IMG/VR virus record: IMGVR_UViG_3300023219_000740
Location: 1-22,389 of that record
DNA length: 22,389 nt
Source of the DNA: a virus
Direction: 5' to 3' (one strand)
Part shown: positions 1,073-18,016 of the stretch, piece after piece
How the letters are laid out: each line of letters begins with the position of its first letter
Position numbering within the stretch: position 1 is the first letter of the stretch
The notes under the pieces: model-generated
What the model was told of the DNA's origin: nothing
The model's database searches: none
The model's input: only the letters and a program-made list of their open reading frames with translations
Translations under genes and position numbers: made by a program

Positions 1073-1411
1073 TTATTCGCAAAGTGCTGTTGCGGCATCC
1101 ATTACAGGATCCAAAGGAATTTTTACACCTGCATACTCTGGACTGTCTTTCCAAACAGCATCAATATTGCTCCCCTCAAGCTTTCCAGACTTTACTCCAT
1201 CAATAGCTAAACCATTTAATGGGTATCGGTCATCAGTTGCTTTGTCGTACACAAAGGCATACTTACCGTTGACGCAAGACACCGTAGCTTTCTCAAAAGT
1301 TAACGGCCAATCATCACCAAACTTAGCGCCGTCTAAATCCTGTGTTTTTTCAGCGGCTAAGGAGCCAAAAGAAAAGGTAAGAAGCATAGCTAAAAAGAGT
1401 TTACGTTTCAT
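1073..1411 (-). CDS. Small exported protein, YebY-like (DUF2511-like) lysogenic-conversion gene
   Basis: A 112-aa protein with a clear signal peptide: MKRK basic start, hydrophobic core at about residues 5-18, and a likely cut near SLA-AE at 19/20. The mature part resembles E. coli YebY (DUF2511) in length, in a F-G-x-D-x-W-x-L-x-F opening, a central V-S-C motif (C46), a YPLN segment and a C-terminal cysteine (C111). The two cysteines suggest a disulfide and a periplasmic location. A longer frame opens at 1483, but the ATG at 1411 has a good AGGGA ribosome site about 6 bases upstream and begins the signal peptide, so I chose it. It starts 8 bp after the repressor stop and precedes int, so it should be expressed from the lysogenic operon. 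It is not a core P2/186 gene and looks like cargo that changes the lysogen. The function is unknown. Confidence 0.75.
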   Translation of the reverse strand: MKRKLFLAMLLTFSFGSLAAEKTQDLDGAKFGDDWPLTFEKATVSCVNGKYAFVYDKATDDRYPLNGLAIDGVKSGKLEGSNIDAVWKDSPEYAGVKIPLDPVMDAATALCE

Positions 1412-1419
1412 AATTTCCC

Positions 1420-2280
1420 TTATACGTGTTTTTCCAATGTGAAAACCACAACCCCGACAGGCGTAATGTCGGTAATGTTGCATTCAAACTCAGCAGACTT
1501 ATTTGACAACCTGACTTTTCCACCAGGTAAACGAATTACATCAAAAACATCAAGAGCGCCGTCGATATCGATTAACCAGCGGCCATTACTTATATTCGAA
1601 GCAGAACAGTCGACAAGCCAAGAGGCGGCCACACCGTCAACAAAAATCAATTCCCCTGAGTTAGAAGGAATCATTGAGGGGTCAGGCTGCCACGTTCCTG
1701 CATCCTTAAGCTCACCAGATTCAAGGCGAGATTTTTTAATAGAAAAACCAGATGTGACACCTTCCCTGTTAGCTCGCATTTGCCCCTTGCCTGTTGCTAA
1801 CCATTCCAGTGACGTATCGGTATCAAGAGCGCATGTAACAACAACATCACCGGGGAAAAAATCTCGCCTTACCCATGTGCTAATTGTGCCAGAGGAAATG
1901 CCGAGCAAATCACCAAGCTCCTTTTGCATGGTAAAGCCGTACGCATCAAGAATCCTACGCAAAACGGTTTTACCACCATTCGTCATAATCTCGTCATAAA
2001 GCTCTTTGCCTTTTAACTTGCAACTGGCACGCTCGTAATTTGCATTTGCAAGCTCTCCATTTACAAGCCAATTGATATCAGCTCCCGTGTCAAGACAACA
2101 CCTAACTATGACGTTGCCAGGTATTGCATCACGCTGAACCCAGCCGCTAACGCTGTGTTTAGCGATACCTAGCAGGTCAGCTAAATCCTTTTGCATCTTG
2201 ACGCCATAGGCTGACATTAAGCGTTCCAATACGCCGTTCGTTGCACCAACACGCCACTGAACATCAAGCTCAGAACTCAT
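1420..2280 (-). CDS. cI: CI-type lysogeny repressor with tandem duplicated DNA-binding domain
   Basis: Transcriptional repressor that maintains lysogeny. Residues 16-76 and 105-165 are two copies of the same helix-turn-helix domain of the Phage_CI_repr type; about half the aligned residues are identical, including YG..MQK.L.DLLGI, S.WV.RD..PG and the closing WL..G. The C-terminal part, about 170-286, resembles the 186 CI oligomerisation domain (IFVD, GRWLIDIDGA, LPGGK, FECNITDI). Phage 186 CI is 192 aa with one DNA-binding domain; the 94 extra residues here correspond to one extra domain plus linker. No S24-type Ala-Gly cleavage and Ser/Lys dyad is apparent, so induction probably needs an antirepressor, which fits the SOS module at 7667-8126. 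The ATG at 2280 is used; M99 at 1986 is a possible internal start giving a single-domain form of 188 aa. Confidence 0.92.
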   Translation of the reverse strand: MSSELDVQWRVGATNGVLERLMSAYGVKMQKDLADLLGIAKHSVSGWVQRDAIPGNVIVRCCLDTGADINWLVNGELANANYERASCKLKGKELYDEIMTNGGKTVLRRILDAYGFTMQKELGDLLGISSGTISTWVRRDFFPGDVVVTCALDTDTSLEWLATGKGQMRANREGVTSGFSIKKSRLESGELKDAGTWQPDPSMIPSNSGELIFVDGVAASWLVDCSASNISNGRWLIDIDGALDVFDVIRLPGGKVRLSNKSAEFECNITDITPVGVVVFTLEKHV

Positions 2281-2309
2281 AAAAACCCCTACAGATAATT
2301 TTATGGGTG

Positions 2310-2338
2310 TTTACAGAAAACTTTTTACGATCTATAGT
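2310..2338 (+). promoter_or_regulatory. Early lytic promoter (pR/Pe equivalent)
   Basis: TTTACA at 2310-2315 and TATAGT at 2333-2338 are separated by exactly 17 bp, giving a near-consensus sigma70 promoter reading toward the Cox-like gene; transcription should start near 2345. It lies in the 121-bp gap between the divergent repressor and early genes, where P2 and 186 have their switch promoters. I could not pick a convincing leftward promoter for the repressor; in 186 that promoter is weak and faces pR. Confidence 0.7.
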
Positions 2339-2367
2339 GGCATTCATCGACCAAGATGCACGCCACT
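2336..2367. promoter_or_regulatory. 32-bp imperfect palindrome, candidate repressor operator
   Basis: AGTGGCATTCATC at 2336-2348 is mirrored by GATGCACGCCACT at 2355-2367 around a 6-bp centre; 11 of the 13 outer base pairs match. The dyad overlaps the last bases of the early promoter -10 and its start point, so a bound protein would block the promoter. Each arm contains two blocks, AGTGGC and CATC, which would suit a repressor carrying two DNA-binding domains per chain. Operator assignment is inferred from position and symmetry. Confidence 0.5.
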
Positions 2368-2401
2368 GCACTACATTTCAAACAACAGGAGATAATGCGA
2401 T

Positions 2402-2773: not shown

Positions 2774-2805
2774 ATTTGATTATGCAAGTTAGAGGGAATT
2801 TAACC

Positions 2806-3315
2806 ATGTTTGATTTTCAGATTTCCAAACACCCACACTATGACGAAGCGTGCCGGGCTTTTGCACAGCGTCACAACATGGCGAAGCTGGCCGAGCGTGC
2901 GGGTATGAACGTTCAAACGTTACGTAACAAGCTCAACCCGGAACAGCCTCACCAGTTCACACCGCCTGAATTGTGGCTACTGACAGACCTGACCGAAGAC
3001 TCAACCCTCGTTGATGGTTTTCTGGCGCAGATTCATTGTCTGCCATGCGTGCCAGTTAATGAGCTGGCTAAAGACAAATTGCAGTCTTATGTCATGCGCG
3101 CAATGAGTGAACTCGGCGAACTGGCAAGCGGTGCGGTATCTGATGAACGTCTGACTACTGCCCGTAAGCACAATATGATTGAAAGCGTTAACTCCGGCAT
3201 TCGCATGTTGTCATTGTCGGCTCTGGCGCTGCATGCACGCCTGCAGACTAATCCAGCAATGTCGAGCGTGGTCGATACCATGAGCGGTATTGGCGCATCG
3301 TTTGGTCTGATTTGA
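2806..3315 (+). CDS. cII: CII-type establishment regulator (186 CII homologue)
   Basis: A 169-aa protein, the length of phage 186 CII, which activates a promoter for repressor synthesis when the phage chooses lysogeny. An N-terminal helix-turn-helix spans about residues 24-45 (NMAKLAERAGMNVQTLRNKL); the remainder is alpha-helical and would carry the oligomerisation region. The frame is open further upstream to 2737, inside the Cox-like gene, but the ATG at 2806 follows an AGAGGGA ribosome site at 2790-2796 and gives the family length, so I use it. It sits between the Cox-like gene and Fil, as in 186. Confidence 0.9.
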   Translation: MFDFQISKHPHYDEACRAFAQRHNMAKLAERAGMNVQTLRNKLNPEQPHQFTPPELWLLTDLTEDSTLVDGFLAQIHCLPCVPVNELAKDKLQSYVMRAMSELGELASGAVSDERLTTARKHNMIESVNSGIRMLSLSALALHARLQTNPAMSSVVDTMSGIGASFGLI

Positions 3316-7706: not shown

Positions 7707-7889
7707 ATGGTTGGCGAACATTTCAGCCGAACGCAGCAAAAGTGGGCTTGTGTGCAATTTATCGCCGAGGTATCTCTGATTGCAAACTGCAAGCCATCAG
7801 ACTTAAAGCTCGCGCTCACTCTCATTGCAGACTTAGCAAACAGCGAAAATAACGAAACCGAAGATGATATTTTTTATAAGGCTGATTAG
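7707..7889 (+). CDS. First SOS-controlled ORF, probable N-terminal Tum-like antirepressor part
   Basis: A 60-aa ORF directly downstream of the LexA box, with a strong GGGAGGG ribosome site at 7695-7701. The protein is mainly helical (QQKWACVQFIAEVSLIANCKPSDLKLALTLIADLAN) with an acidic tail, and shows no known domain. It ends in TAG at 7887-7889, and the following DinI-like ORF is in the same reading frame only one codon later. Phage 186 Tum is a single protein of about 146 aa whose C-terminal half is DinI-like; reading through the TAG here would give 139 aa. It may therefore be the N-terminal half of a split or amber-interrupted Tum, or the first of two separate tum genes. Its action on the repressor is inferred from 186. 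Confidence 0.7.
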   Translation: MVGEHFSRTQQKWACVQFIAEVSLIANCKPSDLKLALTLIADLANSENNETEDDIFYKAD

Positions 7890-7892
7890 ATT

Positions 7893-8126
7893 ATGAGAAT
7901 CAATATCACGTTGGATAAAGAGCAAAAAATTAGTCAGGCAACGTTGGATGCACTGGAGGCTGAGCTGTACCGCAATCTTCAACCTATTTACCCAAAGACT
8001 GCTATCCGCATTCGCAAGGGCTCCGCAAATGGTGTTGAGCTAAGCGGTTTGAAACTGGACGAAGATAAAAAACGAGTAATGGAAATCATGCAGCAAGTAT
8101 GGGAAGACGATAGCTGGCTGCATTAA
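7893..8126 (+). CDS. DinI-like protein, C-terminal Tum-like domain
   Basis: A 77-aa protein closely patterned on E. coli DinI (81 aa): MRINITLDKE strand, an ALEAELYRNLQ helix, the P-K-T-A-I-R-I-R-K strand, and a final helix KKRVMEIMQQVWEDDSWLH matching the DinI EILQETWE.ADDWF ending. DinI modulates RecA filaments; in 186 the DinI-like domain is part of the Tum antirepressor. It follows the 60-aa ORF after TAG-ATT, in the same frame, with only a weak ribosome site, so reinitiation or amber readthrough is plausible. LexA control comes from the shared box at 7667. A strong hairpin follows the stop. Confidence 0.85.
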   Translation: MRINITLDKEQKISQATLDALEAELYRNLQPIYPKTAIRIRKGSANGVELSGLKLDEDKKRVMEIMQQVWEDDSWLH

Positions 8127-8199: not shown

Positions 8200-9138
8200 T
8201 TAATTTAGTTTTAATGAATGGTACTCAACCGAGTCGACCTTAGATTTGATATATGTACAATCATTTACAGAGAGTAATGCTGCTAGTAAGCGACATACCA
8301 GAGCCTGCATTTCTCGTAATATATCATCACCATATTGACCGCCATTAACACTGGAGAAACCAAGCGGTTGACCATAGAAAATAGCCTCATGAAAATTATC
8401 ATTGCGGATGGTTGTAATATTTTTTTTGCCTGTTACCCATGAAGGACGTGGTATGCCATAGGTTTCGCACAGCCACTTTAACCGCCTGGAGTGATTTAAC
8501 GTTTTTTCAGGGCACTTGTTTTTTTCTGCCCACGCTAAAGCAAAACAACCATCCAATGCCATATAAAGATACTGGAACTTTTCAAATGAAAGGTATTGTG
8601 GGTTGTGAGATAAAAATAGTGCGTGCACCACTGCCGCTATTTTTATTGGTGATTTCTCAGTTTTTTGCTCGCTAGATATGTAATTGAGAGCCAATTCTAT
8701 GATTGCTTTTTCAGAGCATCTGCCGAGAATAAAGTCTGTTAACTTAGCAGGCTTGATGGGGGTTGCATCTAAAAAACCAGCATCGGTGGTTGTTAATCTC
8801 ATCCCCCTGAAAAAAGACAGGCACCACACTACAAAGTTGAGAGTTTCTAGCGAGGATGTATTTTTTAATTTTAGTATGTGCGTTTTTGGCAATCCGAATA
8901 CTCGGCAACTATAAGGCATTATGGATATGCCGCCATTAAAGTTATATATCTCTTGGTTTCCTGGGTATATCCAGCCATTAACAACATTTTTGTCATTGTT
9001 AACGCGCTCTACTTTCTCAGCGAGGCCGGGTAAAGTAAGTAAAGAAAAATTTTCAGTCTCAATGTTAACTTCTACTGGATAGTATCCAAACTCAGATCCA
9101 ATCTCATCGGGCTGCTGTTCGTTAACTTCACCTTGCAT
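8200..9138 (-). CDS. HEPN-domain protein, candidate anti-phage abortive-infection RNase
   Basis: A 312-aa cytoplasmic protein without signal peptide, in visibly AT-richer DNA than its neighbours and transcribed against the early operon. The C-terminal half is helical and contains R245-N-D-N-F-H250, the R-x4-H motif with the usual polar residue after Arg that marks active HEPN ribonucleases; the preceding helices (YLYMALDGCFALAWAEKN, SRRLKWLCETYGI) fit a HEPN bundle. The N-terminal 130 residues are mixed and could be a sensor, a layout like ApeA-type defence proteins. It sits between the early genes and cos, where P2 carries tin and old and where related prophages exchange defence genes. The ATG at 9138 has GGAGAAAG just upstream. 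I infer the defence role from motif and location; the N-terminal domain is unrecognised. Confidence 0.72.
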   Translation of the reverse strand: MQGEVNEQQPDEIGSEFGYYPVEVNIETENFSLLTLPGLAEKVERVNNDKNVVNGWIYPGNQEIYNFNGGISIMPYSCRVFGLPKTHILKLKNTSSLETLNFVVWCLSFFRGMRLTTTDAGFLDATPIKPAKLTDFILGRCSEKAIIELALNYISSEQKTEKSPIKIAAVVHALFLSHNPQYLSFEKFQYLYMALDGCFALAWAEKNKCPEKTLNHSRRLKWLCETYGIPRPSWVTGKKNITTIRNDNFHEAIFYGQPLGFSSVNGGQYGDDILREMQALVCRLLAALLSVNDCTYIKSKVDSVEYHSLKLN

Positions 9139-17606: not shown

Positions 17607-18016
17607 AAGTCCTGATAACGCTGCTTGTGCTGGCAGTGCTCGGGTTGCTGTGGTTGCGCCATGAGAACGGCAATTTATCCCGCTCTTTTGAGGCGGCAAA
17701 TCGTGTCGCGAGCGAGCAAAAGACGACGATTGGCATGCTGAAAAATCAGCTCAGTGTTGCCGGTCAGCTCGCCCGACGTAATGAATCCGCGCAGGTGGCA
17801 CTGCGCGAGCAGCTCGCAAAGGCAAGTGCAGAAGCCAGCCGCCGTGAGCAGACGATAACGAGGTTACTTAATGAAAATGAAGCCTTTCGCCGCTGGTATA
17901 ACGCTGCTCTGCCTGATGTTGTGCGTCGGTTGCACACCCGCCCCGCCTGCGCCAGCGCCGGTGATTGTGGTCAACGGATGCCCGAAGGTGAGCCTTTGCC
18001 CGATGCCGGGAAGTGA
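17603..18016 (+). CDS. lysB: Rz-like inner-membrane spanin LysB
   Basis: Inner-membrane half of the spanin pair that fuses the outer membrane at the end of lysis. The 137-aa protein (P2 LysB is 141) has one N-terminal membrane anchor (VLITLLVLAVLGLLWL, residues 3-18) and a long periplasmic coiled coil (about 25-105). ATG at 17603 overlaps the K stop; an upstream open frame inside K is ignored. The outer partner LysC begins within it in another frame. P2 has lysA, a multi-membrane-span lysis-timing gene, between K and lysB; there is no room for it here. Confidence 0.93.
   Translation: MKVLITLLVLAVLGLLWLRHENGNLSRSFEAANRVASEQKTTIGMLKNQLSVAGQLARRNESAQVALREQLAKASAEASRREQTITRLLNENEAFRRWYNAALPDVVRRLHTRPACASAGDCGQRMPEGEPLPDAGK

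Follow-up and report, generated by a model that had tools for sequence, protein, structure and literature searches.

The repressor CI of phage 186 has been described as a 14-mer wheel that wraps or loops DNA. Its helix-turn-helix (HTH) is said, in the title of a 2002 paper, to bind two distinct recognition sequences. Each 192-aa chain carries one HTH domain of the PF07022 type together with a PF16452 domain (PDB 2FJR, 2FKD; U32222), and the 186 record (U32222) annotates CI sites at the lytic promoter pR (three), at FL inside cI, at FR before cII, and at pB. The 186 sites FL, FR and pB share ATTCAC-N5-GTGAAT at 11–12 of 12 positions; 186 pR reaches 9 of 12. Two DNA-binding domains per chain are found in the immunity repressor of mycobacteriophage L5/TipsytheTRex, which PMC9283540 describes as a monomer whose HTH and stoperator domain sit on one asymmetric sequence.

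The DNA analysed here, called the window throughout, is the 22,389-nucleotide IMG/VR virus record IMGVR_UViG_3300023219_000740. An initial sequence-only reading had proposed that its cI gene encodes a repressor with two tandem CI-type HTH domains, about 50% identical to each other, provided that no stop lies between them. The open reading frame in fact runs from an ATG for 286 aa without internal stop, and Pfam finds Phage_CI_repr (PF07022) in two stretches (E 1.3e-52). These two heads, D1 (residues 16–76) and D2 (residues 105–165), are identical at 31 of 61 residues, and their BLOSUM62 local score of 182 compares with 2000 shuffles that average 22.7 and never exceed 44. The same reading was right that the C-terminal domain (CTD) is of the 186 type, since Phage_CI_C (PF16452) covers residues 180–278 (E 4.6e-21), that 186 CI has one HTH in 192 aa as against two in 286 aa here, and that the recognition helices read AKHSVSGW and SSGTISTW. 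With both PF07022 and PF16452 present, the protein belongs to the 186-type CI repressors, although it departs from the single HTH per subunit that is typical, if not defining, of them. It does not belong to the L5 type, as its CTD is 186-type and its putative D2 sites are palindromic; the two heads would also act on different sites within an oligomer, in contrast to the L5-type monomer. At the DNA level the two copies are only 54% identical, so that, as the earlier reading had maintained, they are not an assembly duplicate; near-identical full-length cI genes in PSP3, SEN1, 613R3 and E. coli chromosomes argue against a sequencing artefact. An AlphaFold2 model of the monomer (29 sequences, mean pLDDT 77.6, pTM 0.39, at which the relative placement of domains is unreliable) has two five-helix heads, a joining linker and a confident beta-rich CTD. 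Its best match in the PDB is 186 CI (2fjr), and the CTD fits 2fkd at 1.6 Å, a match by both sequence and fold.

Table 1. Features of the cI region and associated genes in the window
Feature	Position	Strand	Basis or remark
cI, 286-aa immunity repressor: D1 + linker + D2 + 186-type CTD	1420..2280	-	ORF, Pfam, PSP3 likeness
D1, residues 16–76, first PF07022 head, helix AKHSVSGW; variable, swapped with pR; putative pR reader	2053..2235	-	
D1–D2 linker, residues 77–104; pLDDT <50 at residues 78–86	1969..2052	-	
D2, residues 105–165, second PF07022 head, near-invariant helix SSGTISTW	1786..1968	-	
CTD, residues 180–278, PF16452	1447..1743	-	
FL-type palindrome inside cI, ATTTGCATTTGCAAGC on the plus strand, 14/16, encodes part of ELANAN; putative D2 operator	2038..2053		
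cI–cox intergenic region, presumed to hold pR and the D1 operator; lacks a clear palindrome in this D1 type	2281..2401		
Presumed pR: TTTACA (2310–2315), 17-bp spacer, TATAGT (2333–2338)	2310..2338	+	read from sequence
cox/apl-like gene, 123 aa	2402..2773	+	phrog_3554; weak phrog_575 Cox-like
FR-type palindrome ATTTGATTATGCAAGT, 13/16, immediately upstream of cII; putative D2 operator	2774..2789		
cII-like activator (PF06892)	2807..3315	+	start 2807 picked by PSP3 comparison; listed ORF begins 2737
tumA-like gene for a presumed antirepressor; product identical to TumA of PSP3	7707..7889	+	
dinI/tumB-like gene	7893..8126		

The arrangement of the locus (Table 1) follows 186, with the gene order int-cI, apl-cII, and with cI near int and divergent from the cox/apl–cII operon as in 186-type CI loci generally. 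Between cI and int lies a DUF2511 gene (phrog_2950; 1073–1411, minus strand), annotated at the same place in SW9 and Midge, whose listed open reading frame overlaps the end of cI through an upstream extension. After the tum genes sits a 312-aa gene (8200–9138, minus strand) of phrog_5937, a phrog with no assigned function; the PSP3 record has other genes there. The −35 element of the presumed pR is conserved across most D1 types. So is a GATC (Dam site) at 2329–2332, adjoining the −10 element, and methylation control of pR through it is possible.

The window sequence is not new, and the two-headed CI is a widespread family. PSP3 CI (AAN08403), annotated merely as immunity repressor, is 97.9% identical over the whole length; the CIs of PSP3, SEN1, SW9 and Midge all have the same two-headed architecture, those of SW9 and Midge with D1 types different from that of the window. 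The cI gene plus intergenic region was matched in 66 of 5426 complete E. coli genomes, in 40 of them over at least 80% of the query. A scan of IMG/VR gave 119 loci, of which 80 were kept, and a scan of bacterial genomes gave 68, comprising 48 two-headed, 19 single-headed and one truncated locus (L157) that was excluded from domain counts. The two-headed set, with the window and PSP3, numbers 130 loci, which are not mutually independent. No published account of these two CI heads, or of a division of labour between D1 and D2, was found in searches of the open-licence literature; the comparisons below suggest such a division. One candidate source on PSP3, PMC6795024, proved a false lead, psp3 there being a proteinase.

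Across the two-domain representatives the D2 helix is SSGTISTW or a near variant, whereas the D1 helices include AKHSVSGW, YANNISSW, HANNVSSW, PSNSVSTW, AKSNVASW, PLPTISNW and ARNNISGW. Loci L018, L019 and L020 share 54–61% identity with the window in D1 as against 92–95% in D2 and 79–90% in the CTD; E. coli TUM14697 matches the query solely from position 389, in the linker, onwards (D1 52%, D2 93%, CTD 88%). The promoter region follows D1. For 90 pairs of loci alike in D2 and CTD but different in D1, pR similarity is 13.3, near the all-pairs value of 14.9, but it rises to 29.8 for 213 pairs alike in D1 but different in the CTD. With D2 and CTD controlled for, the partial rank correlation between pR and D1 is 0.41, a value reached by none of 500 permutations. 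In the sequences compared, D1 is exchanged together with pR as one cassette, and D2, the CTD and TumA stay constant. The TumA sequences of the window, PSP3, SW9, SEN1, Midge and RCIP0057, six phages with three D1 types, are 100% identical, and for this reason TumA presumably targets a constant part of CI; the upstream tum gene of PSP3 is given as an antirepressor gene, on the authority of a personal communication as the source has it. Two observations count against a strict split. A partial correlation with pR, though a small one (0.16, matched by one of 500 permutations), is seen for D2 as well, and D1 adjoins pR, so that linkage alone would keep the pair together. Adjacency accounts for part of their common travel, and selection for a matched head and operator would be the natural reason. 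Clear pR palindromes, with 8–9 of 9 arm positions, occur in L020, L018, L059 and L047. In the window's own pR there is none beyond chance, the best having 7 of 9 arm positions, as reached in 49 of 100 shuffles that preserve base composition only.

A different palindrome, ACTTGCAWWTGCAAGT, recurs at fixed places. Its three best genome-wide matches lie at pB, in the D1–D2 linker (FL) and before cII (FR) in all five complete relatives (PSP3, SW9, Midge, RCIP0057 and SEN1, which are mutually related and represent three D1 types), and all of these matches score at least 13 of 16, where shuffles expect 0.45–0.78. Because the motif was recognised in PSP3, SW9 and Midge before it was scored, the matches in these three are to some extent built in, and RCIP0057 and SEN1 are closely related phages; the independent test is provided by the single-headed loci described below. 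In the window, where pB falls outside the stretch and FL and FR alone are seen, the top match is that at 2038–2053 in the linker DNA. A further 13/16 match in the late region (17812–17827) is probably due to chance, as 0.35 are expected per window at 13 or more. The FR position scores at least 12 in 62 of 103 two-domain loci with cII found; the other 41 score below 12, which counts against a universal site (of 149 loci, the 42 that gave no usable cII hit were left out, and shuffles for FR preserve base composition only). These putative operators occupy the places of the 186 CI sites FL, FR and pB. The region 2281–2401, which the earlier reading had singled out as the target, does contain the presumed pR; the likely D2 sites, however, lie elsewhere, at pB, upstream of cII and in the DNA of the linker.

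The linker site lies within translated DNA. Among matches inside cI it ranks first in 112 of 130 two-headed loci (11 ties), and its distance to D2 is 79 nt in 76 of 130, 82 nt in 15, and 68 or 71 nt in 23. Loci of the 68/71 group carry the element in another register, where it encodes a different peptide, such as NSHLQT or SLHLQD in place of ELANAN, which argues that it is the DNA and not the peptide that is conserved. Synonymous shuffles of the linker lend only moderate support (median p 0.04; p <0.05 in 73 of 130 loci). The match is absent (score 9) in some two-headed loci, including L114, L117, L118, L124, L127 and L133.

Relatives with one head provide a natural experiment. Their CIs, from 19 genome loci (L136 and L143 included), are about 196 aa long and resemble D2 plus the CTD, and 18 of the 19 have the SSGTISTW helix. 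For Salmonella phage RE2010 (L161) the deposited repressor gene is annotated at just 225 nt, although its open reading frame codes for a complete CI with one head. The palindrome ACTTGCAWWTGCAAGT is present at pR in 15 of the 19 loci, exactly 79 nt before the HTH in all 15; in the examples inspected it lies between TTGACA and TAGATT of the presumed pR, and in L153 it is perfect (16/16). By shuffling that preserves base composition only, the chance of a score of at least 12 of 16 in such a pR stretch is 0.024, and of at least 14, 0.001. A D2-type head thus goes with this operator where D1 is absent, although the 15 loci are closely related (mostly Rahnella and Ewingella) and amount to a few independent cases at best. 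Against this, the palindrome was not found at pR in L149, L150, L155 and L156. The helix of L150 is GNGTVSTW; the other three have SSGTISTW with other pR palindromes (ACCTC..GAGGT, ATCTCG..CGAGAT and ACCTT..AAGGT), and a single head may therefore recognise two sequences, as the title on 186 CI states. L149, with an FR site of 13/16, looks 186-like in this respect, having a single head and two unlike sites.

The 79 nt that separate the linker site from D2 in two-headed genes equal the spacing between pR operator and HTH in single-headed ones, and the same site has therefore probably turned from pR operator to FL, or the reverse, through gain or loss of D1. The linker may accordingly be a translated operator, one site 79 nt before the constant head that serves as pR operator in single-headed and as internal FL in two-headed phages, with immunity type evolving as a plug-in cassette of pR and D1; we regard the case for this as evenly balanced. 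In a tree of D2 plus CTD (without L122, L072 and L157) single-headed loci are nested among the two-headed loci. This favours a history in which D1 was lost and the linker site took over as pR operator; branches are long, recombination is probable, and the reverse direction is also possible. As to the heads themselves, the earlier reading had offered either an old duplication or a fusion of two immunity types, and had looked to single-domain relatives of each copy to tell them apart. In the domain tree, which is built on 64 columns and leaves many forks unresolved, all 31 D1 rows group together as a single clade (SH-aLRT 100) beside the D2s and single-headed CIs, with the 186-like, Fels-like and Felsduovirus domains outside (support 98). 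This looks like one old duplication in the lineage, after which D1 diversified and was swapped, and the tree gives no support to a fusion of separate immunity groups. CIs with two PF07022-like domains also occur in Felsduovirus/Elveevirus (ST437-OXA245phi4.2, 4LV2017), but those domains group with 186/Fels-like heads, unlike those of the window; these tandem heads (L084, L163; 186/Fels-like helices) are probably an independent duplication.

We think it probable that CI splits its tasks between its heads, D1 reading the operator at pR and so setting immunity, D2 reading the constant ACTTGCAWWTGCAAGT at FL, FR and pB, and the CTD joining subunits. The suggestion that the two heads differ in target specificity would then be sound; binding, oligomeric state and repression alike are what we infer from the sequences. 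In outline, D1 heads would sit on the operator of the lytic promoter pR, and D2 heads would hold FL (in the linker DNA of cI) or FR (before cII) and also pB, the ogr promoter. The CTD would oligomerise CI, presumably as a wheel like that of 186; repressor at pR and repressor at the flanking sites would then act jointly and silence the late activator gene along with the lytic promoter. SOS induction would lead to TumA, presumably acting on the constant part of CI.

An alternative is that both heads of one subunit sit on a long composite pR operator, giving tighter or more specific binding, and that the palindrome at FL, FR and pB is the target of some other constant protein, for instance CII or Cox. 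The three annotated CI sites at 186 pR and the small D2–pR correlation noted above fit such an arrangement, as does the FR-type site adjoining cII, where 186 CII activates pE. It is nevertheless unlikely: the window pR scores just 8/16 for the D2-type palindrome, the presence of that palindrome at pR of single-headed D2-type CIs is unexpected for CII or Cox, and the Cox-like gene is merely 78% identical between the window and PSP3/SW9, yet the sites agree. It is more doubtful still that CI joins two immunity specificities and renders the lysogen immune to two phage groups at once. The recognition helices do differ, and single-headed phages with the D2 helix carry its palindrome at pR, so that a two-headed lysogen might repress them; but the D1s form one clade next to D2 and do not come from separate immunity groups, and D2-type sites lie within the same phage at FL, FR and pB. 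Cross-immunity could remain as a by-product.

Very improbable, finally, is a single working head, the other being a relic or a short form starting at M99 being the active repressor. Single-headed relatives exist, and the residue is Met in 23 of 34 representatives; M99 is, however, not conserved, and AGGGG stands upstream of M1 with nothing as good at M99. Purifying selection is strong on both heads (window against L008, 22 synonymous to 1 non-synonymous change in D1, 16 to 4 in D2), and translation of the M99 form alone, which the sequence-only reading had raised against itself, is unlikely on the same D1 counts.

If CI does divide its tasks between D1 and D2, gain or loss of D1 together with a new pR would rewire immunity in one step, leaving FL, FR, pB, oligomerisation and antirepressor control untouched, and this would give phages a concrete route to a new immunity type with the remainder of the switch intact. 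It would also be a case of an operator retained inside coding DNA. Where the single head of 186 CI, a well-studied switch, is reported to read two unlike sequences, two tasks here appear on two heads, and with the heads separate the two-sequence question of 186 could be put to the test by deleting either of them in turn.
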